NCBI RefSeq assembly: GCF_903853455.1
Contig: NZ_CAINTR010000114.1
Coordinates: forward strand, 1 to 64,000
Direction: 5' to 3'
Source: an uncultured Magnetospirillum sp.
GTDB lineage: Bacteria > Pseudomonadota > Alphaproteobacteria > Rhodospirillales > Magnetospirillaceae
DNA: 64,000 nucleotides
Numbering within the stretch: position 1 is the first letter of the stretch; each line of letters starts with the position of its first letter. The position numbers were made by a program, and so were the translations under genes. The notes under the pieces are model-generated. The model searched no databases. It was not told where the DNA came from and saw only the letters and a list, made by a program, of their open reading frames with translations. This document shows, one piece after another, positions 10,249-39,438 of the stretch.

Positions 10249-11004
10249 ATGGGAGATGACTTTATCGTCGAAACCCGCTCCTTGACCAAGGAGTTCAAGG
10301 GTTTCGTCGCGGTGTCCGACGTCAACCTTCGGGTTCGACGACATACGATCCACGCCTTGATCGGTCCCAACGGGGCGGGCAAGACCACCTGCTTCAATCT
10401 GGTGACCAAGTTCCTGACGCCGTCGCGCGGGCAGATCCTGTTCAACGGCCGCGACATCACCCAGACCGAACCCGCCGCCATCGCCCGCCAAGGCATGGTG
10501 CGCTCGTTCCAGATTTCCGCCGTGTTCGGACATCTGAGCGTAATGGAAAACGTGCGAGTGGCGCTTCAGCGCGTCCAGGGCACCTCGTTTCATTTCTGGC
10601 GCTCCGGCGCTTGCCTCGACAGCCTCAACCAGCGGGCGGAAGAACTGATCGAAGCGGTCGGCATCGGCCAATATCGCGACACCCCCGCCGGCGAACTGTC
10701 CTACGGCCGTAAGCGGGCCCTGGAAATCGCCACAACCTTGGCGCTCGACCCGGAAATGCTGCTGCTGGACGAGCCCATGGCCGGCATGGGCACCGAGGAC
10801 GTCAAGCGCACCGCCGAACTGATCCGCCGGGTCGCGGCCAATCGCACCATCCTCATGGTCGAACATAACCTGTCGGTGGTCGCCGATCTGTCCGACACCA
10901 TCACGGTGTTGAAGCTGGGCCATGTTCTGGCCGAGGGCAGCTACGCCGAAATCTCCGGCAATCCCGAGGTCATCGAAGCCTATATGGGGTCCGGACATGC
11001 CTGA
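10249..11004 (+). CDS. livG: Liv-type ABC importer, ATP-binding subunit
   Basis: ATPase of a branched-chain amino acid/amide-type importer, 251 residues. Walker A is GPNGAGKTT (about 37-45), the signature is ELSYGRKRALEIA in place of LSGGQ, as is common in LivG, and Walker B is MLLLDEPMAG. The ATG at 10249 follows GGGAGGTG; a start 24 bases upstream in the same frame lacks such a site. It overlaps livF by eight bases and begins the order livG-livF-binding protein-livH-livM-crp. The substrate cannot be read from the ATPase. Confidence 0.88.
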   Translation: MGDDFIVETRSLTKEFKGFVAVSDVNLRVRRHTIHALIGPNGAGKTTCFNLVTKFLTPSRGQILFNGRDITQTEPAAIARQGMVRSFQISAVFGHLSVMENVRVALQRVQGTSFHFWRSGACLDSLNQRAEELIEAVGIGQYRDTPAGELSYGRKRALEIATTLALDPEMLLLDEPMAGMGTEDVKRTAELIRRVAANRTILMVEHNLSVVADLSDTITVLKLGHVLAEGSYAEISGNPEVIEAYMGSGHA

Positions 11005-11707
11005 GCCTGAGATCCTTCTCTCCGTCCGGGATCTGAATGCCCATTACGGCGAATCCCACGTGCTGCACGGCATGAATTTCGACGTCCCCAAGGGCGAGGT
11101 GGTGACCCTGCTGGGCCGCAACGGCGTCGGCAAGACATCGACCATGCGCTCGATCATGGGCATCGTGTCCAAGCGCGCCGGCTCGATCCGCTATGGCGGA
11201 GTCGAAACCATCGCCATGCCCTCCAACAAGATCGCCCGCCTGGGCCTGGCCTATTGCCCGGAAGAGCGCGGCATCTTCTCGTCGCTGTCGGTGCGCGAGA
11301 ACATGGTGCTGCCGCCGATCATCAAGCCGGGCGGCATGCCGCTGGAGGAGGTTTACCAGTTGTTCCCGCGGCTGCTGGAGCGCGCCAACAGCCAGGGCAC
11401 CAAGCTGTCCGGCGGCGAGCAGCAGATGCTGGCCATTGCCCGCATCCTGCGCACCGGCGCCGAAATGCTGTTGCTCGACGAGCCCACCGAGGGCCTGGCC
11501 CCGGTCATCGTCCAGCATATCGGCGAGATTATCCGCGAGCTTCGCAAGAGAGGGTTCACCATCTTACTGGTGGAGCAGAACTTCCACTTCGCCGCCACCG
11601 TCGCCGACCGTCATTACGTGGTCGAGCACGGGCAGGTGATCGATATGATCCCCAACGCAGACCTGGCGGCGAACATGGATAAGCTGAAGACGTATCTCGG
11701 CGTCTGA
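10997..11707 (+). CDS. livF: Liv-type ABC importer, second ATP-binding subunit
   Basis: A 236-residue ATPase that pairs with LivG. Walker A is GRNGVGKTS, the signature is LSGGEQQMLAIAR, Walker B is MLLLDEPTEGLAP, and the switch region is LLVEQNFHFA. The start ATG at 10997 lies inside the end of livG (eight-base overlap), which implies translational coupling. Length and motifs are normal for the family. Confidence 0.88.
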   Translation: MPEPEILLSVRDLNAHYGESHVLHGMNFDVPKGEVVTLLGRNGVGKTSTMRSIMGIVSKRAGSIRYGGVETIAMPSNKIARLGLAYCPEERGIFSSLSVRENMVLPPIIKPGGMPLEEVYQLFPRLLERANSQGTKLSGGEQQMLAIARILRTGAEMLLLDEPTEGLAPVIVQHIGEIIRELRKRGFTILLVEQNFHFAATVADRHYVVEHGQVIDMIPNADLAANMDKLKTYLGV

Positions 11708-11739
11708 TCCAACCGGAACACTAACGGGAGGTATAACCA

Positions 11740-12951
11740 ATGATAATGAAGCGATTGCTGCTGAGTGCCGCCGCCTTGGCCCTGTCGGCAGGCATGGCCC
11801 AAGCCCAGTACAGCGACAACAAGGTCAAGATCGGCGTACTCACCGACCTGTCGGGAACCTATTCCGATCTGGCCGGCCAAGGCTCGGTGGAGGCCGCCAA
11901 GATGGCGGTGGAGGATTTCGGCGGCAAGGTCAACGGCACGCCCATCGAAGTCGTTTCCGCCGATCACCAGAACAAGGCCGACATCGCCTCCTCCATCGGT
12001 CGCAAGTGGTATGAGAACGAAGGCGTCGATGCCATTTTCGACCTAGTCACCACCGCCGCCGCCGTCGCGGTGCGCGAAGTGTCCCGCGAGAAAGGCAAGA
12101 TCGACATCAATTCCGGCGCCGCCTCCACCGTGCTGACCAACGCCCAATGTTCGGCCACCGGCTTCCACTGGACCTACGACACCTATGCCCTGGCCGTGGG
12201 AACCGGCACCGCCGTGGTCAAGCAGGGCGGCGACACCTGGTTTTTCCTGACCGCCGACTACGCCTTCGGCCAGAGCCTGCAGGCCCAGACCGAGCGTGTG
12301 GTCAAAGCCAATGGCGGCAAGATCCTTGGTGCCGTCAAGCATCCCTTCCCCAACTCCGACTTCTCGTCCTTCCTGCTGCAGGCGCAAGGATCGGGCGCCA
12401 AGATCATCGGCCTGGCCAATGCCGGTTCCGACACGATCAACGCCATCAAGCAGGCCAAGGAGTTCGGCATCACCCAGAGCGGCCAGAAGTTGGCCGGCCT
12501 GCTGGTGTTCATCTCCGACGTCCACTCGCTCGGCCTCGACACCGCCCAGGGCATGCAGTTGACCACCGGCTTCTACTGGGACATGGATGACGGCACCCGC
12601 GCCTTCGCCAAGAAATTCGGCGCCCGCATGAACGGCAAGATGCCCACCATGGTGCAGGCCGGCGTCTATTCCTCGGTGACGCACTACCTCAAGGCGGTGC
12701 AGGCGGCCAAGACCGACGAAGGCATCAAGGTCGCGGACAAGATGCGCGAACTGCCCATCGCCGACTTCTTCGCCAAGAACGGCAAGATCCGGGCCGATGG
12801 CCGCATGGTCCACGACATGTACCTGGCCGAAGTCAAGAAGCCGTCCGAGTCCAAGGGACCGTGGGACTATTACAAGATCGTGCGCACCATCCCCGGCGAC
12901 GAGGCCTATCAGCCGCTGGCCGAAAGCACCTGCGCGCTCGTCAAGAAGTGA
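11740..12951 (+). CDS. Liv-type periplasmic substrate-binding protein
   Basis: A 403-residue class I periplasmic binding protein. A signal peptide (MIMKRLLLSAAALALSAGMAQA) ends with an AQA cleavage site at about residue 22. The mature part starts with VKIGVLTDLSGTYSDLAG, the usual LivJ/K-type ligand lobe. It delivers ligand to the LivH/LivM permeases encoded just downstream. GGGAGG lies eight bases before the ATG. Some relatives in Rhodopseudomonas bind aromatic acids (CouP type), and nearby aromatic genes make that attractive, but the ligand is not determined here. Confidence 0.85.
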   Translation: MIMKRLLLSAAALALSAGMAQAQYSDNKVKIGVLTDLSGTYSDLAGQGSVEAAKMAVEDFGGKVNGTPIEVVSADHQNKADIASSIGRKWYENEGVDAIFDLVTTAAAVAVREVSREKGKIDINSGAASTVLTNAQCSATGFHWTYDTYALAVGTGTAVVKQGGDTWFFLTADYAFGQSLQAQTERVVKANGGKILGAVKHPFPNSDFSSFLLQAQGSGAKIIGLANAGSDTINAIKQAKEFGITQSGQKLAGLLVFISDVHSLGLDTAQGMQLTTGFYWDMDDGTRAFAKKFGARMNGKMPTMVQAGVYSSVTHYLKAVQAAKTDEGIKVADKMRELPIADFFAKNGKIRADGRMVHDMYLAEVKKPSESKGPWDYYKIVRTIPGDEAYQPLAESTCALVKK

Positions 12952-12960
12952 GTTGATCGC

Positions 12961-12993
12961 GTGAGGGGCGCCGGCCGGTCCGGCGCTCCTCAC
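12961..12993 (+). terminator. hairpin between the binding-protein and permease genes
   Basis: Two long arms, GTGAGGGGCGCCGG and CCGGCGCTCCTCAC, pair with one mismatch around a five-base loop. No T tract follows. Such structures often protect the binding-protein transcript so that it exceeds the permease message; that role is inferred. Confidence 0.5.
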
Positions 12994-13021
12994 GTGAGCC
13001 CATAGGGGAGCCCACCACGCC

Positions 13022-13909
13022 ATGATGACGTTTTTCGGCATTCCAACCCAGGCCCTGTTCGGGCAATTGCTGCTAGGGCTCATCAACGGCGCCTTCTACG
13101 CCATGCTCAGTCTTGGGCTGGCGTTGATTTTCGGCCTGCTCAACATCGTCAATTTCAGTCACGGCGCGCTCTACATGATGGGCGCCATGGTCGCTTGGCT
13201 GCTGCTGAACGTCCTCGGCCTGGGCTACTGGCCGGCTCTCATCGTCGCCCCCATCGTGGTCGCCATTTTCGGCATGATCATCGAGCGAACCATGCTGAGC
13301 CGGCTGTACAAGCTGGACCATCTTTACGGATTGCTGCTGACCTTCGGATTGGCGCTGATCATCGAAGGGGCGTTCCGCCAGCTTTACGGCATTTCCGGCA
13401 TGCCCTACTCGGTGCCCAAGGAACTGGCCGGCGGCTGGAATCTGGGTTTCATGTTCCTGCCGATCTATCGCGGCTGGGTGGTGGGGGCTTCGCTGGTGCT
13501 GTGCCTGGGCTCGTGGCTGCTGATCGAAAAGACCAAGCTGGGCGCCTATTTGCGCGCCGCCACCGAGAATGCCACCCTGGTCCAGGCCTTCGGCATCAAC
13601 GTTCCCATGATGGTGACCCTGACCTACGGCTTCGGCGTCGCCCTGGCCGCCATCGCCGGCGTGCTGGCCGCACCGATCTATTCGGTCAATCCGCTGATGG
13701 GGTCGAACCTGATCATCGTCGTGTTCGCGGTGGTGGTGATCGGCGGCATGGGCTCGATCCTCGGCGCCGTCATCACCGGCTTCATGCTGGGTCTGGTGGA
13801 GGGGTTGACCAAGGTGTTCTACCCCGAAGCGGCCAGCACCGTGATTTTCGTGGTGATGGCCATCGTCTTGATGATCAAGCCGGCCGGGCTGTTCGGTAAG
13901 CGGAGTTGA
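13022..13909 (+). CDS. livH: Liv-type ABC importer permease, LivH family
   Basis: A 295-residue inner-membrane permease with about eight hydrophobic segments. Family landmarks are LINGAFYAMLSLGLALIFGL at the start, NFSHGALYMMGA, and the late cytoplasmic EAA-like stretch followed by VVIGGMGSILGAVITGF. AGGGGAG precedes the ATG. It forms the channel with LivM, encoded four bases downstream. Confidence 0.88.
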   Translation: MMTFFGIPTQALFGQLLLGLINGAFYAMLSLGLALIFGLLNIVNFSHGALYMMGAMVAWLLLNVLGLGYWPALIVAPIVVAIFGMIIERTMLSRLYKLDHLYGLLLTFGLALIIEGAFRQLYGISGMPYSVPKELAGGWNLGFMFLPIYRGWVVGASLVLCLGSWLLIEKTKLGAYLRAATENATLVQAFGINVPMMVTLTYGFGVALAAIAGVLAAPIYSVNPLMGSNLIIVVFAVVVIGGMGSILGAVITGFMLGLVEGLTKVFYPEAASTVIFVVMAIVLMIKPAGLFGKRS

Positions 13910-13913
13910 TGCC

Positions 13914-14876
13914 ATGACCACCGTGACTTCAACCTCGTCCCGCGCCGTGTCGCCTCAGCTGCTGCTGGTGCTGGTGCTGATCGTCCTGGCGATGATCGCG
14001 CCGTTCGGAATCTATCCCATCTTCCTGATGAAGGGATTGTGCTTCGGACTGTTCGCCGCGGCCTTCAACCTGCTGCTGGGCTATGTCGGGCTGCTGTCCT
14101 TCGGCCACGCCATGTTCTTCGGCTTTTCCGCCTATGTCACCGCCCATGCCGCCAAGGAATGGGGCCTGACCCCGGAACTGGCGATCCTGGCCGGCATCGC
14201 CACCGCAGCAGTGCTGGGAGCCGTCACCGGCTGGCTGGCCATCCGCCGGTCGGGCATCTATTTCGCCATGGTGACCCTGGCCTTCTCGCAGATGATGTAT
14301 TTCGTGGCGGTGCAGGCGCCGTTCACCCATGGCGAGGACGGCATCCAGGGCGTGCCGCGCGGCCATCTGTTCGGCCTGATCAACCTGAACGACACCATGA
14401 CCATGTACTACTTCGTGCTGGCGATGTTCGTGGCCTCGCTGCTGGTCATCCACCGCATCGTCACCTCGCCGTTCGGCCAAGTCCTGAAAGCCATCCGCGA
14501 CAACGAGCCGCGCGCCATTTCGCTGGGCTATCAGGTCGACCGCTACAAGCTGCTGGCCTTCATCCTGTCCGCCTCCCTGGCCGGGCTGGCCGGTTCGCTC
14601 AAGGCGCTGGTCTTCCAATTGGCCTCGCTGACCGATGTTCACTGGCATGCCTCGGGCGAAGTGGTGCTGATGACCCTGCTGGGCGGCGTCGGCACCGTGT
14701 TCGGCCCGACGGTAGGGGCCTTCCTGGTGGTCGCCATCCAGAATTACCTGTCCGAGGTGGGGTCGTGGGTGACCATTATCCAAGGTTCCATCTTCGTGGT
14801 TTGCGTGTTGCTGTTCCGTAGCGGTATGATCGGCGTCATGACGCCGTGGTTGAAGCGGCGCGGCATCACCGGTTGA
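13914..14876 (+). CDS. livM: Liv-type ABC importer permease, LivM family
   Basis: A 320-residue permease partner of LivH. It shows the family stretches FNLLLGYVGLLSFGHAMFFG and the C-terminal ALVFQLASLTDVHWHASGEV with LLGGVGTVFGP. Multiple hydrophobic helices predict an inner-membrane location. It is separated by four bases from livH and sixteen from the following Crp-family gene, so all are likely one transcript. Confidence 0.88.
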   Translation: MTTVTSTSSRAVSPQLLLVLVLIVLAMIAPFGIYPIFLMKGLCFGLFAAAFNLLLGYVGLLSFGHAMFFGFSAYVTAHAAKEWGLTPELAILAGIATAAVLGAVTGWLAIRRSGIYFAMVTLAFSQMMYFVAVQAPFTHGEDGIQGVPRGHLFGLINLNDTMTMYYFVLAMFVASLLVIHRIVTSPFGQVLKAIRDNEPRAISLGYQVDRYKLLAFILSASLAGLAGSLKALVFQLASLTDVHWHASGEVVLMTLLGGVGTVFGPTVGAFLVVAIQNYLSEVGSWVTIIQGSIFVVCVLLFRSGMIGVMTPWLKRRGITG

Positions 14877-14892
14877 GGAGTTCCTTCCGTTC

Positions 14893-15594
14893 ATGACCGA
14901 AACCGTCCAACGGCGCCGCGAAATGCTGGCGAAGACGCCGCTGTTTTCCGCCATTCCACCATCGTTGTTGGATGAGCTGGCGATCAAGGCCAAGACCATT
15001 CGCGTCGATACCCGTGAAGTGCTGTTTTCCAAGGGAGACCCCGGCGACCGCCTTTATCTGGTGGCCAAGGGCCTGATTCGTATCGGCGTCCTGTCGGTGG
15101 AGGGCCGCGAAGTCACCTACGGCATGATCAAGCCGGGCGAGCTGTTCGGCGAAATCGCGGTGCTCGACGGCGGCGTTCGCTCGGCCGACGCCACCGCCAT
15201 GGAAACCAGCGAACTGCTGGCCTTGGAGCGCAGGGATGTCACCGCCTTTCTCCAGCGCCACCCCATCCAGGCGCTGCACCTGCTGACCGTGCTGTGCGAC
15301 CGGGTTCGTCGCGCCGACGATCTGCTGGAGGACGTGGTCTTCCTGTCGCTGCCGTCCCGCCTGGCCAAGCACCTGCTGATGCTGGACGCCACGCTCGGCA
15401 CCCGTGACCATCCCAAGGGTCCCGTCACCATCCGGCTGTCGCAGCAGGAAGTGGCCGACCATCTGGGCATCAGCCGCGAGAGCGTCAACAAGGTGCTGTC
15501 CAAATGGGAACAGGTGGGCATCGTCACCCTGGGCCGCGGCCAGATCACCTTGAACAAGACCGCCGCCCTGGAGGAGTTCGCGTCGCCGCCGTGA
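14893..15594 (+). CDS. Crp/Fnr-family transcription regulator
   Basis: A 233-residue regulator. The cyclic-nucleotide-binding fold covers about residues 15-130 (GDPGDRLYLVAKGLIRIG, PGELFGEIAVLDGG). A C-terminal winged helix-turn-helix follows (LSQQEVADHLGISRESVNKVLSKWE, about 185-210). The N-terminal cysteines of Fnr are absent, so it is not an oxygen-sensing Fnr. GAGGAG precedes the ATG and the gene closes the Liv operon, so control of that importer is plausible but not shown. Confidence 0.85.
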   Translation: MTETVQRRREMLAKTPLFSAIPPSLLDELAIKAKTIRVDTREVLFSKGDPGDRLYLVAKGLIRIGVLSVEGREVTYGMIKPGELFGEIAVLDGGVRSADATAMETSELLALERRDVTAFLQRHPIQALHLLTVLCDRVRRADDLLEDVVFLSLPSRLAKHLLMLDATLGTRDHPKGPVTIRLSQQEVADHLGISRESVNKVLSKWEQVGIVTLGRGQITLNKTAALEEFASPP

Positions 15595-24602: not shown

Positions 24603-25628
24603 TTAGGGCTTCATACATCCTGTTCGCACTGAAATCTTGCCACGCCGGGCGGCGATGACCTCGGCCAGGATGGAGACCGCGATCTCCGCCGGTGTCTTGG
24701 CGCCGATGTCGAGACCGACCGGCGCCGAGATGCGGGCCAAGGCCTGATCGTCGAGGCCAAGGTCTCCCAGACGCTGGCACCGCTTGGCATGGGTGCGGGT
24801 GCTGCCCAGCGCCCCCACATAGAAGGCGGGCGAGGCCAACGCCATGCGCAACGCGGCATCGTCCAGCCGCGGCACATGGGTCACGCTGACCAGGGCGGTG
24901 CGGCGGTCCAGCTTCATCTCGGCCAGCACCTCATCGGGCTCGCCGCAGATCAGGGTGACGCCGGGAAAGCGCTCGGGCGCGGCGAAGGCCCGGCGCGGGT
25001 CGAGCACGGTGACGGCAAAGCCCACGGAGCGGGCCATGCCGGCCAGCACCTGCGAGATGTGCACCGCGCCGGTGATGATCATGCTCCAGGGCGCCTCGTG
25101 AACCCGCACGAACACGCCGCTGGACTCCTTGGCCCCCTCCGTATCCTTGGTCAGAGCGTCGATGGCCTCGTCGCCCTCCGCCAAGGTTTGCGCGCCGGTG
25201 GTCAGGTCCAACACCAGCGCCGAGGGAATCCGCTTGGCATGGCTGGCGACGATCCGCTCCAGCAGCTCCTTCTCGGACGGAAACACCGCCACCCGGATAT
25301 TGCCGCCGCAGGGCAGCCCCACAGCCCAAGCGGTTTCATCCTCGACTCCGAACGCCAGCAGACGGGGAGCGTCCCCGTCCTCCATCTCGCGGGCCTCGGC
25401 GATCACCGCCGCCTCGACACAGCCGCCGGAGACGGAGCCGGCGAAGGCTCCATCCCGACTGACCGCCATGTAGGAGCCTTGGGCACGCGGCGCCGAGCCC
25501 CAGGTGGACAGCACCACCGCCAGATTCACCGTCTGGCCCGCATTCAGCCAGCGCAGCGCCGTTTCCAGCACCTCGCCGTCATCGGCGGCCATGTCGGCGG
25601 GATCACAGCGGATGGCATCGACGCACAT
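24603..25628 (-). CDS. xdhC: XdhC-family molybdenum cofactor maturation factor
   Basis: A 341-residue protein. The N-terminal XdhC region has STWGSAPRAQGSYMAV and SVSGGCVEAAV; the C-terminal Rossmann-like half has VTHVPRLDDAAL and FYVGALGSTRTHAKR. XdhC proteins bind molybdenum cofactor, promote its sulfuration and hand it to xanthine-dehydrogenase-family enzymes. The ATG at 25628, five bases after the hcrB stop, was preferred over an in-frame TTG. Its client is almost certainly the HcrA subunit of this operon. Confidence 0.88.
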   Translation of the reverse strand: MCVDAIRCDPADMAADDGEVLETALRWLNAGQTVNLAVVLSTWGSAPRAQGSYMAVSRDGAFAGSVSGGCVEAAVIAEAREMEDGDAPRLLAFGVEDETAWAVGLPCGGNIRVAVFPSEKELLERIVASHAKRIPSALVLDLTTGAQTLAEGDEAIDALTKDTEGAKESSGVFVRVHEAPWSMIITGAVHISQVLAGMARSVGFAVTVLDPRRAFAAPERFPGVTLICGEPDEVLAEMKLDRRTALVSVTHVPRLDDAALRMALASPAFYVGALGSTRTHAKRCQRLGDLGLDDQALARISAPVGLDIGAKTPAEIAVSILAEVIAARRGKISVRTGCMKP

Positions 25629-25633
25629 GATGG

Positions 25634-26608
25634 TTACTTTCGGTTCCAAAGGTCGTCCACCAGTTTACGGCTGACCGCGAGCAACACCCGACGACGGTAT
25701 TTGACCCCGGCGACGGTGGTTTTCAAGACGTTGGAGGTCTTGCGCACCGTCTGGACCAGAGTCTCGGCCGCCGCGTCGTCCCAGCCCCCCCCCACCACCG
25801 CCTCGGTCGCCACCATCAGCGGCGCTGAATTGGTGCCGGTGATGGCCACACGCAGGCCGGCGATGGTGTCGCCGTCCCGCTTCAACGCCACCGCGATGCC
25901 AGCCAGGGGGAAGTCGATGGCGTCGCGGATGCGGACCTTGGCATAGCTAGCCTCCCACCCCGTGGCGGGAGGCACGATCACGGCAGCCAGCACCTCGCCC
26001 TTGTCCAGAGTCAGGTGGTCGGCCCCGCTTTCACGGAACAGCTGAGCCAGCGGCACCGTGCGCTTGCCCTTGGAGCCGACGATCTCGGCCTCGGCGCCCA
26101 GCACCATCAGGGCCGGGGCGACGTCGCCGTGATAGGTGGCGTAACAGCGGTCGCTCTTGACCACCACATGGCACTTGTCGCCGTCGTGCTTGAGGCAATA
26201 GCCGTTGCCGGACCGCCACCATTCGCTCTGATTGTAAAAGACGCAGCGGGTGTCCTGGCACAGATTGCCGCCCAGGGTCGCGGCCGAGCGATGGGTCGGC
26301 CCCGCCACCAGTTCCGCCGCCTGGGCGATGGCCGGCCAGCCGGCACGGAGGCCGGCATCCTCGACGATGGCCTCCAGGGTGGTGCCGGCGCCGATACGCA
26401 AGCTCCCGTCCGTGGCGATTCCGATGCCGGCCAGATTACCGATGCCGGTAAGGTCCACCAGAACCTCCGGCCGGCCGAGGCCGCGCCGCAGATTGGGCAA
26501 CAGGTCGGTGCCGCCGCCGATGGCCTGGGCGCCTTCGTTGGCCAGGGCGGCGACAGCCTCAGCCAGGCTGACGGGGCGAAGGGTGCGGAAATCGGGAAGG
26601 ATGTTCAT
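25634..26608 (-). CDS. hcrB: 4-hydroxybenzoyl-CoA reductase, beta (FAD) subunit
   Basis: A 324-residue FAD subunit. FAD-binding motifs are [12 protein letters not shown] and [12 protein letters not shown]. It has the loop that sets this enzyme apart from other xanthine-dehydrogenase relatives: Cys122, Cys138, Cys146 and Cys155 hold an extra [4Fe-4S] cluster, and these numbers equal those known for the Thauera enzyme. The cluster lets electrons run towards the substrate for Birch-like reduction. It overlaps hcrA by four bases (ATGA). Confidence 0.93.
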
Positions 26609-28914
26609 TCTGCGGCTTCCTTCGCATCAAGCAGTTCCACGATCTTGTCGGGGGTGAGCGGCAAGTCCAGGGGGCGGATTCCCACCGCCTCGTAGACGGC
26701 GTCCATCACCGCCGGCAGGAAGCCGGCCAGCATACCCTCCGACGCCTCCTTGGCGCCGAACGGCCCGTTGGGGTCGATGCTCTCGACGATGATCACCTCG
26801 ATATCGGGGCTTTCCGCCATGGTCGGCATGCGGTAGTCGAGGATGTTGCCGTGAAGCATGCGGCCGTCGTCATAGCGGGTCTCCTCTGACAGGGCTTGGC
26901 CCATGCCCATCCAGACGCCGCCTTGGGTCTGGCCCTCCACCGCCAGCGGATTGAGCGCCTTGCCCACATCCACCGCTACCCACACTTTGTGGGCGGTGAC
27001 CTTGCCGGTGACCTCGTCCACCGACGCCTCGACCACCTGGGCGGCGTAGCAGAAGCCCATGGTGGCGCCGATGGCGCTGCCCCGGATCTTCTTGTCACCC
27101 TGGTACTCGATGGGACAGGTGAAGGTCCCCTTGACGGTGATGGTGCCGCTGTCGATCAACGCCGCCTTGACCACCTCCTGGAAGGTCAGGCCGGGGTCCT
27201 GGCTGCCGGCCACCATGAAGACCTCGTCCATGACCTCGATATCCTCGGGCCTTGCGTCCAGCTTCTTGGCCGCCGCCTTGACCAGGACGGCCTTCAGGGA
27301 CTCGGCGGCGTCCAGCGTGGCGTTGCCGACCATGAAGGTGACGCGCGACGAATAGCTGCCATTGTCCTTGGGGGTCAGGGCGCTGTCGGCGGAGATCACC
27401 CGGATACGGCCGAGACTGACGCCCAGCACCTCGGCCGCCACCTGGGTGGCCATGGTGTTGGAGCCTTGGCCGATATCGGCGGCGCCGGTCAGCAGGGTGA
27501 TGCCACCGTCGAAGTCGAGCTTGAGGTTGACGGTGGCATGGGGCTCGCCGGTCCAGTGCTTGGGGGTCGAGGTGCCCGACACGAAGTGGGAGCAGGCGAC
27601 GCCGAGCCCCCTGCCCTTCGGCATGTTGCCGCGCCGCTGTTCCCAGCCCGACGCCGCCTTGACCTTCTCCAGGCATTCCGGCAGGCCGTAGCTCATGACC
27701 TTCTGGGCATACATGGTGGTGTAGGGAATCTGCTGGATCAGGTTGATCTGGCGGACTTCCAGGGCGTCGATACCCAACTCCTCGGCCATCTCGGTCAGCA
27801 GCGCCTCGAAGGCGGCGCGGGTATCGACCGTGCCATGGCCGCGCATGGCGCCGCAGGGCGGGGTATTGGTGTAGACCCGCCAGGCATCGTGCTTGATGGC
27901 GGGGACATGGTAGAGCCCATGCATCAGGGCGCCGGTATAGAGGATGGTGATGATGCCGTAGCCGGCATAGGCGCCGCCGGCCTGGGTCGCCTCCAGGGCG
28001 CAGGCGGTGATCTTGCCGTCCTTCTTGAGGCCCAGCTTCATCTTCACTTCGGTCCACGGCCGGCCGCGATGGGAGATGAAGGTTTCCTCGCGGGTCTGGA
28101 GCAGCCGCACCGTGCCCTTGGCCTTGCGGGCCAGCAGACCGGCGATGATCTCGAAGCTGAGGCATTCGGTCCGTGCCCCGAAGCCGCCGCCCAGGAACGG
28201 CTTGATCACCCGGATGCGAGCCGAGTCCATCTGGAGGCAAGCCGCCACCTTGAGGTGGACGTAATACGGCACCTGGGTGGTGGTGTTCAGCGTCAGCCAG
28301 TCGCGGACCGGGTCGTACTCCGCCAGGGTGGCGTTGAGTTCCATGTGGACGTGATTGACCTCGGCGAAAATGTAGGTCTTCTCGCGGATCAGGTCGGCCT
28401 CGGCGAAGCTAGCCTCGACGTCGCCGAACTCGGCATGGACCTCGCGCAGGACGTTGTTGGGCTTGTCGTCGTGCAGCGCCACCGCGCCGGGCTTCATGGC
28501 CGCCTTCGGGGTCATATAGGCCGGCAGCACCTCGTACTCGACCTTGATCAGGCTCAGGGCCTTCTCGGCGGTGATCTCGTCGATGGCGGCGACGGCGGCC
28601 ACCGGGTCGCCGCGATAGCGCACCTTGTCGCGCGCCAGGGGATACTCGTTCTCGGCGATGGGCAGCACGCCGAAGGGAACCGGCGTCTCGGCGCCAGTGC
28701 AGACGCAGACCACGCCGTCCAGCGCCTCGGCCGCCGAGGTGTCGATGGACAGGATCCGGCCATGGGCGACAGGGGAGCGCAGGATGCGCCCGACCAGGGC
28801 GCCCTGTACCACGATGTCAGCGGTGTATTTGGCCTTGCCGGTCACCTTCTCGACGCCGTCCACCAGGGGGGTGCGGGCGCCGATCTTGCCGTTTTTCGGG
28901 ATCTTGACGGTCAT
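26605..28914 (-). CDS. hcrA: 4-hydroxybenzoyl-CoA reductase, alpha (molybdenum) subunit
   Basis: A 769-residue molybdopterin subunit, the length of the characterised Thauera protein. It removes the phenolic hydroxyl of 4-hydroxybenzoyl-CoA to give benzoyl-CoA under anoxic conditions. Cofactor-binding stretches are [20 protein letters not shown] and [12 protein letters not shown]; the catalytic glutamate lies in [11 protein letters not shown]. The ATG at 28914 overlaps the end of hcrC (ATGA), so a longer upstream frame was rejected. It acts in the cytoplasm as part of an (alpha-beta-gamma)2 complex. Confidence 0.93.
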
Positions 28915-29393
28915 TCCGCGGCCTCCCGGCAGGAGCTGGAAGCGGCCGCCTCGACCGATTCGATGATCTTCACATAGCCGGTGCAGCGGCATAGATTGCC
29001 GGCCAGCGCCGCCTTGATCTCGTCGCGCGACGGATCGGGGTTTTTGCGCAACAGCGCCTCGGCCGCCATGATCATGCCCGGCGTGCAGAAGCCGCACTGG
29101 GTGCCCAGCTTCTCGTGGAAGGCCGCCTGAAGCCGCGAGATGGTGCCCTGGGTGGCGAGGCCCTCGATGGTCTCCACCACCTTGCCGGCCACCTGATGCG
29201 CCAAGGTGGAACAGGCCAGACGCGGCCGGCTGTCCACCAGCACGGTGCAGGCGCCGCACTCGCCGCCATCACAGCCCTGCTTGGAACCGGTCAGGTTGGC
29301 GATCTCGCGCAGATAGTCCAGCAACAGCATGTTGTCGGGGACCAGATCCTCGCGGGGCCGGCCGTTGAGGGTCAAACGTAGGATGCTTTTCAA
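28911..29393 (-). CDS. hcrC: 4-hydroxybenzoyl-CoA reductase, gamma (2Fe-2S) subunit
   Basis: A 160-residue protein with two [2Fe-2S] clusters. The plant-type ligands are [15 protein letters not shown] with a later Cys in LACSTLA; the second set is CGFCTPGM and CRCTGYVKI. It accepts electrons from ferredoxin and passes them to HcrA. It starts 34 bases after the marR stop and leads hcrC-hcrA-hcrB-xdhC, all joined by short gaps or overlaps. Confidence 0.93.
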
Positions 29394-29427: not shown

Positions 29428-29895
29428 TTATGGATACAAGCGTTTGAGCAGGCTGATCAGGGTAGCGCGCTCGGCCGGCGACAGCGCCGCCGCGAAGTCG
29501 CGGTCCTGGCGCATCACCGCGTCCTCGATGCGCTTGAGCGCCCGCTTGCCGTCGGCGGTCATGCGCAGGCTATAGCTGCGCCGGTCGTTGGGCACCGCGT
29601 CGCGGCTGATCAGCCCCTTCTCCTCCAACTGGTTGACCACCTTGACGATGGAGGAGCGGTCCACGTCCATAGCCTCGGCCAGGGCGCTTTGGGTCAGTCC
29701 CGGATTGTTGGCGATCACCTGGATCATGCCGTAAAGGCCGGGCGTGATCCCCTCGGCGGCGGTCACGGTCTGGGCGAAATGCTTGAAGGCGGCCACCTGG
29801 GCGCGGCGCAGATGGAAGCCCAATTCCTCGGCCATGCAGCCTTGGGAAATTTCCGACTCCACCGTATCCACCAGCTTGGCCTGGGTAACCTTCAT
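29428..29895 (-). CDS. MarR-family regulator of the hcr operon
   Basis: A 155-residue winged-helix regulator. The DNA-recognition region is LTQSALAEAMDVDRSSIVKVVNQLEEKGL (about 75-103) with the wing DRRSYSLRMT. It is the first gene of the hcr transcript and has two palindromes directly upstream. MarR proteins commonly repress aromatic operons and release DNA on binding the CoA thioester or acid; 4-hydroxybenzoyl-CoA would be the logical effector, an inference. Confidence 0.85.
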   Translation of the reverse strand: MKVTQAKLVDTVESEISQGCMAEELGFHLRRAQVAAFKHFAQTVTAAEGITPGLYGMIQVIANNPGLTQSALAEAMDVDRSSIVKVVNQLEEKGLISRDAVPNDRRSYSLRMTADGKRALKRIEDAVMRQDRDFAAALSPAERATLISLLKRLYP

Positions 29896-29923
29896 GGCAA
29901 TCCCTCGATCTCGGTCCGGGGGA

Positions 29924-29942
29924 TTGTTTACCAGGTCAACAA
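29924..29942. promoter_or_regulatory. MarR-type operator 1
   Basis: TTGTTTACCAGGTCAACAA is a 19-bp palindrome with eight of nine arm pairs matching. It lies 29 bases before the marR start, between that gene and the divergent HbpS-like gene. Confidence 0.65.
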
Positions 29943-29956
29943 CTTTAGCAACAAGA

Positions 29957-29975
29957 TTGTTTACCTAGCAAACAA
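29957..29975. promoter_or_regulatory. MarR-type operator 2
   Basis: TTGTTTACCTAGCAAACAA repeats the left arm of operator 1 exactly and pairs at seven of nine arm positions. The two sites start 33 bp apart, about three helical turns, which suits side-by-side dimers. Confidence 0.65.
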
Positions 29976-30095
29976 TCGTGGCCGGGTGCCCCCGTGCCGG
30001 AGGCCCGCATTCGGCCCTGGTAACCTGCGGGGCGAGCCCCCATATGCCGCCTCATCGCAACGATTGCCACAAGTGCATCGATCGGGAGGCCGCCA

Positions 30096-30617
30096 ATGAA
30101 ACCCCTGGCTTCAACCATTCTCGTGATCTCCGCGACGCTGCTGCTCGGCAGCACCGCACAAGCCCAATCCCCCGCGCCGATGCCGGCGCCGATTCCAGAG
30201 ACGATGCCGTTCGAAATTCCGTTCGGCACGCCCATCACCCTTGACCACGCCAAGAAGGTGGGCGCCGCCGCCGAAGAAGAGATGAACCACCACGGCTGGA
30301 AGATGGCCTGCGCCGTGGTCGAGCCGACCGGCGACCTGGTCTATTTCATCAAGCATGACGGCACCCAATACGCCTCCATCGCCATTTCCCAAGGCAAGGC
30401 CCGCACCGCCGCCACCTTCCGCCGCCCAACCAAGGTGTTCCAAGATCTCATCAACGGCGGCCAGCCCGTCATCCTGTCGTTCCCCGGCATCGTGGCCACC
30501 GAAGGCGGCATTCCGTTGGTCGAGAACGGCAAGCTGATCGGCGCCATCGGGTGCAGCGGCGGCTCGTCGGCCCAGGACGGCGTGGTGGCCAAGGCCGCCG
30601 CCGACACCGTCAAGTAA
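30096..30617 (+). CDS. secreted HbpS/GlcG-family protein
   Basis: A 173-residue protein with a clear signal peptide (MKPLASTILVISATLLLGSTAQA). The mature part is one GlcG/HbpS domain: ITLDHAKKVGAAAEEEMNHHGWKMACAVVEPTG, then GKARTAATFRRPT and the glycine-rich GAIGCSGGSSAQDGVVAKAA. Members bind haem or small ligands, and a periplasmic location is predicted. GGGAGG precedes the ATG. It diverges from marR-hcr and shares the two operators, so it may answer to the same inducer; its function is not known. Confidence 0.8.
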   Translation: MKPLASTILVISATLLLGSTAQAQSPAPMPAPIPETMPFEIPFGTPITLDHAKKVGAAAEEEMNHHGWKMACAVVEPTGDLVYFIKHDGTQYASIAISQGKARTAATFRRPTKVFQDLINGGQPVILSFPGIVATEGGIPLVENGKLIGAIGCSGGSSAQDGVVAKAAADTVK

Positions 30618-34631: not shown

Positions 34632-34704
34632 CAAATTCCTGGTTGCCCCAATTTCGCGCATGGTTAGGATGTGGCCTCGGAATCGCCCCATCCAGGCCAG
34701 CCTC

Positions 34705-35637
34705 ATGAACCGCCGCGTCGACGACATCGTCACCCAGATCTTCGAACGGCTTCGCCCCAAGGCGAAATCGCTGATCATCACCGTCTATGGCGACGCCATC
34801 CTGCACCATGGCGGCTCGGCCTGGCTGGGCAGCGTGATCAATCTGGTCGAGCCGTTGGGCCTCAACGAACGCATCGTGCGCACCTCGGTGTTCCGCCTGT
34901 CCAAGGAGGAGTGGCTGGCCTCCAGCCAGATCGGCCGGCGCAGCTATTACCGTCTGACCGATCTGGGCCGCCGCCGCTTCGAGGCCGCCAACAGCCGCAT
35001 CTATAACCACGTTAGCCAGCCCTGGGACGGCCGCTGGACCCTGGTCATCACCAATATCGCCCAGATCGACGCCGAAAAACGCGACATGATCCGCCGCAAT
35101 TTCGGCTGGATCGGCTTCGGACAATTGGCCAGCGGCGTCATGCTCCATCCCGACCCGGACAAGGCCGTGATGCGTCAGGTTCTGACCGACCTGGACGTGT
35201 CCGAACAGGCGGTGGTGATGACCGGCGGCATGGAGGCGGGATTTTCCACCGCCGCCCAGGATGCCATGATCCACAGTTGCTGGGACCTGGAGCGCCTCGC
35301 CGAGGATTACACCGAGTTCCTCGACATCTTCCGCCCGCTCTGGCAGGGCCTGAGCGCCAATGGTGGACTTGATCCCCAGCAGTGCTTCGTGGTTCGCACC
35401 CTGCTGATGCACGGCTATCGCCGCGCCTTGCTGCGCGACCCCATGCTGCCCGACGAGCTGCTGCCGGCCAATTGGCCGGGCACCTCGGCCAGGCTTCTGT
35501 GCCGCAACCTGTATCGCCTGGTTCAAGCGGCGGCCGAAACTCACGTCATGAGCATGCTGGAAACCGCCGAAGGGCCGGTGCCCGAAGCCCATCCCGGCTA
35601 CTACACCCGGTTCGGCGGGCTTCAGACCGCCGACTGA
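34705..35637 (+). CDS. paaX: PaaX-family regulator of phenylacetate genes
   Basis: A 310-residue protein matching PaaX along its length. Landmarks are KAKSLIITVYGDAILHHGGSAWLGSVINL, RIVRTSVFRLSKEEWL and GRRSYYRLTDLGRRRFEAA, then the C-terminal PaaX domain. E. coli PaaX (316 residues) represses the aerobic paa operon and is released by phenylacetyl-CoA. Here the next gene is padB of the anaerobic route, on the same strand 200 bp away. The ATG at 34705 gives the family's length; an in-frame ATG at 34660 is possible, and neither has a strong ribosome site. The assignment of its target is inference. Confidence 0.85.
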   Translation: MNRRVDDIVTQIFERLRPKAKSLIITVYGDAILHHGGSAWLGSVINLVEPLGLNERIVRTSVFRLSKEEWLASSQIGRRSYYRLTDLGRRRFEAANSRIYNHVSQPWDGRWTLVITNIAQIDAEKRDMIRRNFGWIGFGQLASGVMLHPDPDKAVMRQVLTDLDVSEQAVVMTGGMEAGFSTAAQDAMIHSCWDLERLAEDYTEFLDIFRPLWQGLSANGGLDPQQCFVVRTLLMHGYRRALLRDPMLPDELLPANWPGTSARLLCRNLYRLVQAAAETHVMSMLETAEGPVPEAHPGYYTRFGGLQTAD

Positions 35638-35677
35638 GGCGTCACCTTATTCACCAGATCACCAACAAGTTTTGTAT

Positions 35678-35699
35678 CGCTTTAGCATGGCCTAAAGCG
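35678..35699 (+). other. inverted repeat between paaX and padB
   Basis: CGCTTTAG and CTAAAGCG form a perfect eight-pair stem with a six-base loop, 40 bases after the paaX stop. No T tract follows. It may be a weak terminator for paaX or part of the padB control region. Confidence 0.35.
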
Positions 35700-35704
35700 G
35701 CTGA

Positions 35705-35729
35705 TGCCCCATGCCATCGTGACAAAGCG
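35705..35729 (+). promoter_or_regulatory. pad-shared 25-bp element, padB copy
   Basis: This 25-bp stretch contains CCCCATGCCA and GTGACAAAGCG and matches 43978-44002, upstream of padE, at 21 of 25 positions. It lies 33 bases before the candidate -35. A conserved binding site for a common pad regulator is the simplest explanation. Confidence 0.65.
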
Positions 35730-35762
35730 CCGCCCCTTCCCCAAAATCGTTACGCAAAAATT

Positions 35763-35792
35763 TTGACTCACATGCATAATTTGCAGTACATA
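35763..35792 (+). promoter_or_regulatory. candidate padB promoter with ATGCATAA repeats
   Basis: TTGACT (35763-35768) is followed after 18 bases by TACATA (35787-35792). ATGCATAA occurs at 35772-35779 and again at 35792-35799, exactly 20 bp apart, so a regulator bound at both would cover the promoter. The padB ribosome site GGAGGG (35825-35830) follows. Confidence 0.5.
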
Positions 35793-35839
35793 TGCATAAG
35801 AACGCAGTGCGCCAACGAGCGTATGGAGGGAATAACGCC

Positions 35840-38605
35840 ATGTCTAGCAAGGGCTTAGCCTCAAAAAAATCCATCCCGACATACTGCTACAACTGCGTCT
35901 CTTGACCTGACTTTATGTGCATCACGGTGGAGGACGGCGTCGCCACCACCATCGAGCCCAACCACGCCGGCAAAGGCATCCACCCCGCCGACGGGCGACC
36001 CTGCGTCAAGGCCTATGGCTTGTTGCAGAAGACCTACAACCCCAACCGCGTCCTGACCCCCATGAAGCGGACCAACCCCAAGAAGGGCCGCCACGAGGAC
36101 CCCGGTTTCGTGGCGATTTCGTGGGACGAGGCGCTGGACGAAGTCACCGCCAAACTGAACGACATCCGGGCGCGCGGCCTGACGGACGAGGCGGGACTGC
36201 CGCGCGTTGCCGCCACCTTCGGCCATGGCGGCACCCCGGCCAGCTATATGGGCACCCTGCCCGCCTTTCTCGCCGCCTGGGGCCCCATCGACTACAGCCT
36301 GGGCTCGGGCCAGGGCGTCAAGTGCACCCACTCGGAGCATCTCTACGGCGAATTCTGGCACCGGGCCTTCACCGTCTGCGCCGACACCGCCAATACCCGC
36401 TACATCGTGTCGTTCGGCGCCAATGTGGAAGTGACCGGCGGCGTCTGTGCCGTGCGCCGCCACGCCGACGCCCGCATCCGGGGCGTCAAGCGGGTCCATG
36501 TGGAGCCGCATCTGTCGGTGACCGCCGGCTGCTCGGCCGAGTGGGTTCCCATCAAGCCCAAGACCGACCCCGCCTTCATGTTCGCCATGCTGCACGTCAT
36601 GCTGTGCGAGGCCGAGCGTCAGCGGCTCGATCTTCCCTTCCTGCGCGACCGTACCGCCGCGCCCTATCTGGTCGGTCCCGACGGCTATTACCTGCGCGAT
36701 CCCGAGACGGGCAAGCCGCTGCTGTGGGACACCGTCACCCAGGCGCCGGTGCCGTTCGACACGGCCGACGCCGTCCCGGCGCTGGAGGGGGCGTTCACCA
36801 TCGCGGTCGCGGTCAGCCACCGGGCCGACGGCGAAGTCGCCCGGCACGACAATGTCGTCGCCGGCACCTCCTTCGCCGCCATGGTCGAAGCCATGCGGCC
36901 CTATACCCCGGACTGGGCGGCCACCGTCTGCGACGTCCCCGCCGCGACCATCCGGCGGGTGGCGTTGGAATATCTCGACAACGCCTGTGTCGGCCAGACC
37001 GTCGAGATCAACGGCCAGACCCTGCCCTTCCGACCGGTGGCGGTCACCCTGGGCAAGACCGTCAACAACGGCTGGGGCGCCTTCGAGTGCTGCTGGGCCC
37101 GCACCGTGCTGGCGACGGTGGTGGGTGCGCTGGAAGTGCCGGGCGGAACCCTGGGAACCACCGTCCGCATCAACCGTCCCCACGACAACCGCCTCGCCAG
37201 CATCAAGCCGGGCGAGGACGGCTTCATGAATTGCACCTTCAACCCCACCAGCAAGGAAGGGTGGTCGGCCAAGCCGACCGGACGCAACGCCCACCGCACC
37301 CTGGTGCCGCATGTGGGCAATTCGCCGTGGAGCCAGGCCCTGGGGCCGACCCATCTGGGCTGGATGTTCCTGCGCGAGGTACCGGACAACTGGCCCAAGC
37401 CGGCCATGCCGGAAATATGGTTCGCCTATCGCACCAATCCGGCCATGTCGTTCTGGGAGATCGAGCGGCTGACCGAAACCATTTCCATGATGCCGTACAT
37501 CGTGGCCTTCGCCTATACCATGGACGAAACCAACCACATGGCCGACATCCTGCTGCCGGAGGCCACCGATCTGGAAAGCACTCAGCTGATCCGGGTGGGC
37601 GGCACCAAGTTCATCGAGCAGCACTGGGATCATCGCGGTTTTGTTCTGCGCCAGCCGGTGGCTGAGCCCCAGGGCGAGGCCCGCGATTTCACCTGGATCG
37701 CCACCGAACTGGCCCGGCGCACCGGCCTGCTGCACAAGTACAATGAGAGACTGAACAAGGGCGCCGCCCTGGTGCCGCTGAAGGGCGAGGGATACGACTA
37801 CTCGCTGCCGCTGGACGAAGTGCCCCAGGTGGACGCCATCTGGGACGCTGTGTGCAAGGCAGCCACCGCCGAACTGACCGACGGCGCCGACATCAAGGAC
37901 CTGGAGTGGATGAAGGCCAACGGCTTCTTCGTGGTGCCCTATGCCCGCGAGGACTGGTACCTCTATCCCACCATGGTGGAACAGGGGCTGCGCTTCGAGC
38001 TGCCCTATCAGGAGCGGCTGCTGCGCATCGGCGAGGAGTTGAAGCGCCGGCTGCACGAGCAGGGCATCCACTGGTGGGACACCCAGTTGACCGAATACCG
38101 GGCCCTGCCCCACTGGGACGACGTGCCGGAACATTGGACCAAGGCGGTGCGCGCCTCCGACCGCGATCCCGACGATTTCCCGTTCTGGGGCATCACCACC
38201 AAGAGCATGCAGTACAGCACCGGCAGCAATTCCGGCATTCCGCTGATGAACGAGGTGGCCGGCAACATGCGCGGCCACGGCAAGGTCATCATGAACGCCG
38301 GCACCGCCAAGCGGCTGGGCATCGCCAAGGACGACTGGGTGGAGATCTCCTCGCCGGTGGGGGCCACCCGCGGCCGCGCCGAACCGGTCCAGGGCTGCCG
38401 GCCCGACACCATCGTCATTCCCAGCCAGTTCCAGCACTGGAAGACCCCCTACGCCAAGGATCTCGGTTATCCCTCGCTGAACGCCGTCACCCCCATGTCT
38501 GGCCCCACCCTGGAACTGACCGACGCCACCGGCTCGGGCGCCGACGTGGTCCGGGTGGCGCTGCGCCGCGTCGATGGCCCGCTTGAGAGGGGAGAAGCGT
38601 CATGA
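35840..38605 (+). CDS. padB: phenylacetyl-CoA:acceptor oxidoreductase, molybdenum subunit, with in-frame TGA at codon 22
   Basis: Large molybdopterin subunit of the enzyme that oxidises phenylacetyl-CoA to phenylglyoxylate. GGAGGG lies nine bases before ATG 35840. The frame reads ...IPTYCYNCVS, then TGA (35903-35905), then PDFMCITVEDG and on without interruption to residue 921. Cys16, Cys19, Cys27 and Cys55 fit a [4Fe-4S] set (C27 to C55 has the usual 27-residue gap), so the TGA lies inside the cluster motif. A likely molybdenum-ligand Cys sits at codon 162 in GQGVKCTHSEH. Reinitiation at ATG 35915 lacks a ribosome site and would lose two ligands. Either the gene is inactivated by one base change or the TGA is read through. 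fdhD, padC and padD follow with ATGA overlaps. Confidence 0.8.
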
Positions 38606-39438
38606 CCGCCATGCCGCGCATGGCGGCGGACACGGTGATGGTCGAGCGCTGGAGCGACGGCGTCGCCGAGACCGGCTCGGACATGGCCGCCGCCGAGATC
38701 CCGGTGAGCCTGGAGTATAACGGCATCTCCCACGCGGTGATGCTGGCCTCGCCCACCGACATCGAGGACTTCGCCACCGGTTTCAGCCTGACCGAGGGGA
38801 TCGTCGACCACCTCCGCCACATCCAGGACCTGGAGGTCGTCGAACGCGACGAAGGGCTTCAGGTCCGGATCACCATCGCCGCCGAGTGCTTCCACCGCCT
38901 CAAGCTGCGCCGCCGCAGCATGGCGGGGCGCACCGGCTGCGGGTTGTGCGGCACCGAGAGCCTGTCGCAGGTCTTCCGCCCCATCGCCCCGGTGACGGCG
39001 CGAAGCATGGTGGCCCCCAGGGACTTGCAGCAGGCCCTGGAGGATCTGGTGGCGTCGCAGCCATTGCAACACCTGACCGGCGCCACCCATGCCGCCGCCT
39101 GGCTCGACGGCGCCGGGCGCCTGACCGTCCTTCGCGAGGATGTGGGCCGCCACAATGCCCTGGACAAGCTGATCGGCTGCCTCGCCCGGACCGGCACCGA
39201 TTTTTCCACCGGCGCGGTGGTGATCACCAGCCGCGCCAGTTCCGAGATGGTTCAGAAGGCGGCGGCCATGGGAATCGGCGTTCTGGCGGCGATCAGCGCC
39301 CCCACCGTGCTGGCGATCCGCATGGCCGAGCAGTTGAACCTGACCCTGGTCGGTTTCGCCCGGCGCAATCGCCACGTTCTCTATGCCGGGGCGCAACGCA
39401 TCGCCGGCCACTCGACCCGTCAGGGAGCTGCATCATGA
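38602..39438 (+). CDS. fdhD: FdhD-family sulfurtransferase for molybdenum cofactor
   Basis: A 278-residue protein. The CxxC of FdhD is present in GRTGCGLCGTESL; other landmarks are LREDVGRHNALDKLIG and VITSRASSEMVQKAA. FdhD carries sulfur from IscS to the bis-MGD cofactor of formate dehydrogenases. Here it overlaps padB by four bases and padC by four, which suggests that PadB needs the same sulfido ligand; this client relation is inferred from position. No formate dehydrogenase gene is in view. Confidence 0.88.
   Translation: MTAMPRMAADTVMVERWSDGVAETGSDMAAAEIPVSLEYNGISHAVMLASPTDIEDFATGFSLTEGIVDHLRHIQDLEVVERDEGLQVRITIAAECFHRLKLRRRSMAGRTGCGLCGTESLSQVFRPIAPVTARSMVAPRDLQQALEDLVASQPLQHLTGATHAAAWLDGAGRLTVLREDVGRHNALDKLIGCLARTGTDFSTGAVVITSRASSEMVQKAAAMGIGVLAAISAPTVLAIRMAEQLNLTLVGFARRNRHVLYAGAQRIAGHSTRQGAAS

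Follow-up and report, generated by a model that had tools for sequence, protein, structure and literature searches.

Two CouR repressors are among the known systems closest to the regulator considered here. In Rhodopseudomonas palustris, CouR locally represses a pathway for an aromatic acid that proceeds via CoA thioesters, and it is inhibited by p-coumaroyl-CoA (according to excerpts of PMC10458429). p-Coumaroyl-CoA also releases CouR of Rhodococcus jostii RHA1 from DNA, which neither the free acid nor CoA does, while PcaV, the second-best solved relative of our protein, binds protocatechuate and not an aryl-CoA (both as described in passages of PMC4737184). On the enzyme side, the R. palustris genes hbaA-D, encoding 4-hydroxybenzoyl-CoA reductase, rise strongly on 4-hydroxybenzoate (part of PMC6974649).

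For the hcr genes, which encode the same enzyme in the bacteria studied here, no description of a MarR regulator was found in the open-licence PMC literature, nor did we find in print there the hcr regulator-operator pair, its twin arrangement around the proposed promoter, or the possible link to a thiolase operon. Neither hcr nor MarR occurs in PMC6449761. HcrABC is named only as an enzyme in passages of PMC10715001, passages of PMC4268860 name no hcr regulator, and PMC1924859 and PMC2988823 show no word beginning with MarR. Passages of PMC5852087 place marR of Thauera aromatica and R. palustris together with genes for benzoate degradation and do not state that it controls hcr.

The marR-hcr locus

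The window, i.e., the whole stretch of 64,000 nucleotides analysed here, carries on its minus strand, in this order, marR, hcrC, hcrA, hcrB, and an XdhC-family gene. Two palindromes, hereafter O1 and O2, lie between marR and a divergent gene for an HbpS-like protein. The features are as follows, from the upstream neighbor to the end of the cluster:

30096 to 30617, plus strand: HbpS-like gene with a signal-like N terminus (by eye); PF03928, 111.6 bits
29957 to 29975, minus strand: O2, the upstream 19-bp palindrome, reading TTGTTTGCTAGGTAAACAA on the marR strand; 13/19 columns invariant in 14 genus loci
29946 to 29951, minus strand: TTGCTA, the proposed -35 box for marR-hcr; forms the best-scoring intergenic pair with the -10 box
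29924 to 29942, minus strand: O1, the promoter-proximal 19-bp palindrome, reading TTGTTGACCTGGTAAACAA on the marR strand; 14/19 columns invariant in 14 genus loci
29923 to 29928, minus strand: AACAAT, the proposed -10 box, overlapping the edge of O1, 17 bp from the -35 box; conserved geometry
29428 to 29895, minus strand: marR, presumed to encode the cognate regulator (155 aa); above cut-off for PF01047 and PF12802
28911 to 29393, minus strand: hcrC, 4-hydroxybenzoyl-CoA reductase gamma subunit; TIGR03193, 287.1 bits, cut-off 257.8
26605 to 28932, minus strand: hcrA, 4-hydroxybenzoyl-CoA reductase alpha subunit; TIGR03194, 1340.4 bits, cut-off 994.55
25634 to 26608, minus strand: hcrB, 4-hydroxybenzoyl-CoA reductase beta subunit; TIGR03195, 527.4 bits, cut-off 404.55
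24603 to 25649, minus strand: XdhC-family molybdenum-enzyme maturation factor; PF13478 and PF02625 above cut-off, both NCBIfam matches below cut-off

All three subunits, HcrA, HcrB, and HcrC, exceed their curated cut-offs, as expected of a 4-hydroxybenzoyl-CoA reductase operon, and the cluster is assigned to the anaerobic (oxygen-free) breakdown of 4-hydroxybenzoate. Judging the extent of the operon from gene spacing, the XdhC-family gene is probably the last gene of the marR-hcr operon. The MarR protein has a winged helix-turn-helix domain of the MarR type (PF01047, 51.9 bits for a cut-off of 24.6; PF12802, 52 bits for a cut-off of 27). Its closest solved chain is PDB 6c28 (E 7e-17), which we take to be CouR of R. 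palustris, followed by PcaV (4fht). On the other side of the palindromes, the start codon of the HbpS-like gene lies 120 bp beyond O2, and potF-type transporter genes come next on the plus strand (the first of them was scanned).

Two other regions of the window may touch on aromatic metabolism or its control. At 34660 to 39438, genes for PaaX (TIGR02277 above cut-off), an 896-aa molybdopterin oxidoreductase (no NCBIfam model above cut-off), and FdhD stand in a row, which we presume may be a phenylacetyl-CoA oxidoreductase cluster; PaaX- and FdhD-like genes are also found upstream of marR-hcr in several relatives. At 10922 to 15594, a branched-chain-type ABC transporter (ATPase, binding protein, and permeases) is followed by a CRP/FNR-type regulator, an arrangement that to us is reminiscent of the hba transporter and hbaR of R. 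palustris. FNR-like boxes (TTGATNNNNATCAA, at most 2 mismatches) number 25 in the window, compared with a mean of 11.9 and a largest count of 20 in 100 shuffles. None lies in the marR-HbpS intergenic region at that threshold, and an FNR box was rejected there.

Twin palindromes and the proposed promoter between them

The preliminary description had placed two nearly identical 19-bp palindromes with a shared sequence between marR-hcr and the HbpS-like gene, 33 bp apart, and this reading of the DNA proved correct. In the window sequence, O1 (TTGTTTACCAGGTCAACAA) has 8/9 and O2 (TTGTTTACCTAGCAAACAA) 7/9 complementary arm pairs. Their left arms (TTGTTTACC) are identical and 15/19 positions agree between the two sites, which are also inverted copies of each other; the 33 bp run from start to start and leave an intervening gap of 14 bp. 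The symmetric consensus TTGTTTACCNGGTAAACAA, searched at no more than 3 mismatches with the reversed pattern as control, met O1 and O2 only, both in the window (0 in 100 shuffles) and in the whole 5.18-Mb genome (reversed control, 0), and the genome-wide search called for earlier hence yielded no further place. Palindromes with at least 7/9 pairs are not rare by themselves (183 in the window; mean of 151.9 and largest count of 185 in 40 shuffles), but a pair of similar palindromes 19 to 60 bp apart is rare, occurring once in the window (mean of 0.075 and largest count of 1 in 40 shuffles). Judged from the sequences compared below, it is conservation that lifts the twin palindromes clearly above chance. 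A degenerate version of the pattern gave 19 forward matches in the own genome versus 26 for the control, with 0 mismatches at the twin, 2 at one other place (C150), and 3 at all the rest. In view of this lack of excess over the control, a wider regulon in the own strain was rejected.

Relatives were gathered in two sets: (i) named GTDB contigs, giving 10 loci, eight of them of the Paramagnetospirillum/Phaeospirillum/Magnetospirillum type or from an uncultured Rhodospirillaceae MAG and two from betaproteobacterial MAGs, and (ii) whole genomes, where 47/149 had a homologue at E 1e-20 and 30 came as loci. Eight repeats of set-1 loci were left out and two own-genome copies were dropped, the own locus (L013) being counted once. 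Upstream sequence was read for 22 hcr-linked marR genes and one further hcr-linked gene (L089), 23 altogether, and was compared with that of 10 marR homologues for which ~1.5 kb of retrieved flanking sequence contained no match to hcr; 14 regions of a CouR-like paralogue were also read.

Within the genus, site and regulator are inherited together: the palindrome (at most 3 mismatches) is present in 14/17 genomes, the same 14 that carry this marR and hcrA (above cut-off), and the other three (G004, G006, and G015) are devoid of palindrome, marR, and hcrA alike. Both palindromes and the 33-bp spacing are kept in 14/14 genus loci, which are related and not independent sequences. Named carriers of the twin include Paramagnetospirillum kuznetsovii, P. 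caucaseum, and P. marisnigri. The invariant columns of these loci amount to 13/19 in O2, 8/14 in the spacer, and 14/19 in O1, with 1/25 just upstream and 1/20 just downstream, a sharp footprint of conservation that, as far as these columns tell, ends at the palindromes. Across the 28 genus sites (56 half-sites), G3, T4, T5, and C8 are invariant, T1 is found in 55/56 and T2 in 45/56 (otherwise C). T or G occupies position 6, A (40), G (14), or C (2) position 7, and C or T position 9.

At least one palindrome at no more than 3 mismatches is found in 21/23 hcr-linked upstream regions versus 0/10 of the homologues without hcr nearby, where no site appears even at 5 mismatches. Genome G026, which has hcrA/hcr genes and no adjoining marR, shows no site at up to 5 mismatches in the 6.5 kb around hcr. 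Two sites at up to 4 mismatches occur in 18/23 hcr-linked regions; L011, L012, and L031 have a single site and L032 and L089 have weak sites only (5 mismatches), and the doubling of the operator is not universal among hcr-linked loci. The reversed control at up to 3 mismatches gave 10 matches in the 17 genus genomes compared to 31 for the true pattern, 26 of the 31 being at marR, while in the two betaproteobacterial records the true pattern gave 1 and 2 matches and the control 1 and 3. Thus, a lone 3-mismatch match means little, because the control also matches by chance, and it is the repeated position that counts.

The emphasis placed earlier on helical phasing needs to be qualified. The 33-bp distance, i.e., 3.1 turns, stands in 14/14 genus loci. 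Loci of other genera either have a single site or are spaced by 35 bp (L027), 36 bp (L032, weak sites), 34 bp (L033), or 23 bp (L030 and L034), corresponding to 3.33, 3.43, 3.24, and 2.19 turns, respectively. An exact phase is therefore not essential, and a rough same-side phasing may be favored, though neither exact nor universal.

A conserved TTGC lies between the palindromes, and TTGCTA-17-AACAAT scores best among the -35/-10 pairs of the intergenic region, with 8/12 bases of the sigma-70 consensus; it falls below the threshold of the promoter scan, which found no promoter on either strand. The more general pair TTGNNN-17/18-AAC(A/T)AT is present in 14/14 genus loci and in 5/8 hcr-linked loci outside the genus (the two betaproteobacterial MAGs, with the inner palindrome only, L027, L032, and L033; not found in L030, L031, and L034), as well as in 1/10 of the non-hcr homologues. 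The -35 box reads TTGCCA in 9/22 hcr-linked loci and TTGACG in L033. When the spacer was varied from 8 to 30 bp in the loci outside the genus, a distance of 8 was found in 4/8, 17 in three, 18 in two, 24 in one, and no other distance occurred; the spacer of 8 stems from the left arm of the palindrome itself. In 11/14 genus loci a spacer of 20 is found as well, because another TTG precedes the proposed -35 by 3 bp, and the box is not unique there. From this conserved geometry, we infer that TTGCNN and AAC(A/T)AT are the -35 and -10 boxes of the marR-hcr promoter, which would place the transcription start near 29916 on the minus strand. A palindrome of operator size (~16 to 20 bp) would then overlie the regulator's own promoter, with the -10 box at the edge of O1.

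A comparable layout was seen at L028, a marR homologue that adjoins an aldehyde ferredoxin oxidoreductase-type gene (PF01314). Its upstream region (L087, about 2970 to 3030) has a TTGCCA-17-AACAAT pair but a palindrome with a changed core, TTGTTGGATTATCCAACAA, and this marR may encode a sister regulator whose specificity has changed while the layout was retained. Farther upstream (L087, about 1100 to 2800) lies a CRISPR-like array of short repeats with differing spacers, in the translation of which 'CGRLSICYT' is repeated.

Proposed switch and competing explanations

We propose a model in which the twin is a double operator for the adjacent MarR, named here HcrR, which would repress its own synthesis at a single marR-hcrCAB promoter and be released by an aryl-CoA; on the strength of sequence comparison, we give this reading a probability of about 0.83. 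The model starts from what was observed directly, namely the two sites and how well they are conserved, the way they go together with marR-hcr, and a -35/-10-like geometry that is likewise conserved. We infer from these the identity of the promoter, binding by MarR, repression as the sign of control, cooperation of the dimers, and the ligand. A first MarR dimer on O1 would lie over the promoter spacer and most of the -10 box, and a second dimer on O2 would sit immediately before the -35 box, separated from the first by about three helical turns and on nearly the same face. Together, they would exclude RNA polymerase, and the regulator would in this way repress itself and the 4-hydroxybenzoyl-CoA reductase genes until an aryl-CoA, most likely the enzyme's own substrate 4-hydroxybenzoyl-CoA, releases it. 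Known relatives, namely both CouRs, are released or inhibited by an aryl-CoA, and 4-hydroxybenzoyl-CoA is a plausible candidate ligand of the MarR protein. In the single-site loci L011 and L012, the site retained is O1, over the -10 box, and O2 is missing; therefore, repression from O1 looks like the basic arrangement. The earlier prediction of MarR operators and of marR-hcr autoregulation is well supported, as a prediction, by the conservation of the sites and their joint occurrence with marR-hcr.

The main open alternative is a two-way regulator that represses from O1 and activates from O2 (near -50). The location of O2 just upstream of the proposed -35 box, the weakness of the promoter boxes (8/12), and the entry for BadR as a repressor/activator in excerpts of PMC10458429 would all suit such a regulator, but the two loci that retain O1 over the -10 box and dispense with O2 speak for repression, and we regard the two-way mode as improbable. 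It is very unlikely that the sites are bound by another regulator, e.g., the CouR-like paralogue encoded at C153, and that the adjacent marR is incidental. A look-alike site does stand beside this paralogue in 7/14 genus genomes, but in the other seven, among them the own genome, another palindrome, TTGTTGTTGCRCACAACAR, comes after the paralogue; the stretch GIDRSGAVILIDALE around the paralogue's recognition helix does not vary among the 14 despite the differing sites, and hcr sites are present in both groups of seven. Hardly credible, finally, is an action of the palindromes as RNA, with a hairpin in a leader or readthrough transcript serving as attenuator or terminator. O1 and O2 are inverted copies, the minus strand folds at -34.4 kcal/mol (z -4.87), and one of the two terminator-like matches in the region (shuffled mean, 0.3) is O2 on the minus strand; however, any two similar DNA palindromes fold as RNA, and this reading was rejected despite the good fold, given that the conserved -10-like box inside O1 would put the start downstream of both sites and that relatives with a single palindrome cannot form an O1-O2 hairpin.

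A further reading, taken from the preliminary description, is that the twin sites jointly control two divergent promoters, those of marR-hcr and of the secreted HbpS-like protein. The HbpS-like gene is indeed divergent, at the 120 bp from O2 given above, and CouR of R. jostii serves two divergent promoters from one inverted repeat (passages of PMC4737184). The best HbpS-facing promoter-like pairs reach 7/12 bases, one below the 8/12 of the marR pair, and one of them, GCAACA-17-AACAAT (29948 to 29976), uses the end of O2 as its -10 box. Against these points, the HbpS-like match (E 1e-15) is found in 1/17 genus genomes, and the upstream neighbor of the twin in the 14 genus loci is a divergent HbpS gene once (the own locus), a divergent potF gene three times (L004, L006, and L009), and a tandem gene ten times. 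The tandem genes are alpha/beta hydrolase-like in L003, MerR-like in L010, PaaX-like in L019 and L020, and FdhD-like in L022, L025, and L026 (all named by resemblance), with further ones in L005, L007, and L008 (by eye from the sequence); seven of the 14 loci are tandem by ORF call and these last three by eye, and L006 was assigned from its PotF match. Because both sites keep their form next to a tandem neighbor, O2 is not there for a divergent gene. No second gene is conserved with the site as a divergent operator would lead one to expect. On the promoter side, a TTG-type -35 is absent among the eight best HbpS-facing pairs of 16- to 18-bp spacing, the scan mentioned above was negative on both strands, and 29977 to 30095 is 71% GC, although this evidence against HbpS control is weaker than that from conservation. 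Joint control is, therefore, judged unsupported, with a low likelihood comparable to that of the two-way regulator. The HbpS-like gene looks like a recent insertion between marR and potF and is judged not to be part of the conserved switch; an incidental effect on it in this strain is possible, with no positive support.

The paralogue raises a question of its own, i.e., whether HcrR may reach further genes in sister genomes. It is also present in all 14 hcr-bearing genus genomes. In seven of them (G000, G001, G003, G007, G011, G012, and G014), it is followed by the palindrome TTGTTGTTGCRCACAACAR and an enoyl-CoA hydratase-type gene (an assignment scanned for the own genome only), and the fetched stretches of these seven hold no hcr-type site at up to 5 mismatches. 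In the other seven (G002, G005, G008, G009, G010, G013, and G016), it is followed by the site TTGTTKACYNRGTMAACTG and a thiolase-type gene. The look-alike lies at 5587 to 5605 of L060, followed by TTGT, and likewise in L059, L061, L062, L063, L080, and L085. It has 3 mismatches to the hcr consensus in four genomes, 4 in two, and 5 in one, deviating from it in one arm, at the two outermost positions; taken singly, matches as good as this lie at the chance level of the reversed control. The genes scanned in G002 (L060) encode a thiolase, a FadJ-like protein, and an ABC binding protein; the thiolase call in the other six is by eye from the protein start. Because GIDRSGAVILIDALE is the same in all 14 paralogues, it may be the hcr-linked MarR that uses the differing site. 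We thus advance, as a tentative and on balance doubtful extension of the model, that HcrR is a dedicated 4-hydroxybenzoyl-CoA sensor recognizing the half-site T-Y-G-T-T-K-R-C-Y and that a thiolase operon has been recruited via the hybrid TTGTTKACYNRGTMAACTG in half of the hcr-bearing genus genomes. If true, the steps from phenylpropanoids to 4-hydroxybenzoyl-CoA and the step consuming it would be induced by the same metabolite. The wider regulon in sister genomes is to be taken as a lead and not as a result.

Significance and relation to known systems

Our study provides a concrete predicted operator and promoter map for the control of 4-hydroxybenzoyl-CoA reductase in Paramagnetospirillum-like bacteria, in which cross-genome comparison separates the likely operator target, marR-hcr, from an accidental divergent neighbor, the HbpS-like gene. 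If tuned to 4-hydroxybenzoyl-CoA, the regulator would also be a useful biosensor part. In a tree rooted at its midpoint, the hcr-linked MarRs cluster together (3 label changes versus a shuffled mean of 15.9) without forming a single clean clade. A 94/94 branch sets them apart from the 14 CouR-like paralogues, from 8/9 non-hcr homologues, and from 6c28, whose branch, like that of PcaV, is long and its placement unsure. L029, which has no hcr on its 5.1-kb contig, is placed among the hcr-linked MarRs.

Among the known systems, HbaR and the hba genes of R. palustris concern the same enzyme, there under substrate-linked control. HbaR is an FNR-type activator, whereas at hcr a MarR protein is found here, next to an intergenic region without an FNR-like box at up to 2 mismatches. 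R. palustris CouR is the best solved match of the MarR protein (6c28, E 7e-17) and itself responds to an aryl-CoA; however, its own pathway is that of p-coumarate and the hcr-linked MarRs lie across the 94/94 branch, and the palindrome core of the CouR-like paralogue, TTGTTGTTGCRCACAACAR, differs from the hcr core, TTGTTTACCNGGTAAACAA. BadR of R. palustris is likewise a MarR regulator of anaerobic aromatic (benzoate) catabolism, but its listed ligand is 2-ketocyclohexane-1-carboxyl-CoA and it is described as a repressor/activator (in excerpts of PMC10458429). A parallel in operator design is CouR of R. jostii, a MarR dimer acting on a promoter-overlapping inverted repeat and released by an aryl-CoA, which uses one cATTGA-N5-TCAATg box over the -35, between divergent promoters (passages of PMC4737184), whereas the hcr twin has two 19-bp sites, one over the proposed -10 box and one upstream of the -35 box. 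Altogether, the switch proposed here is a clear example of an ordinary and already known kind, in which a MarR protein acts on palindromic operators of the catabolic operon that it belongs to.
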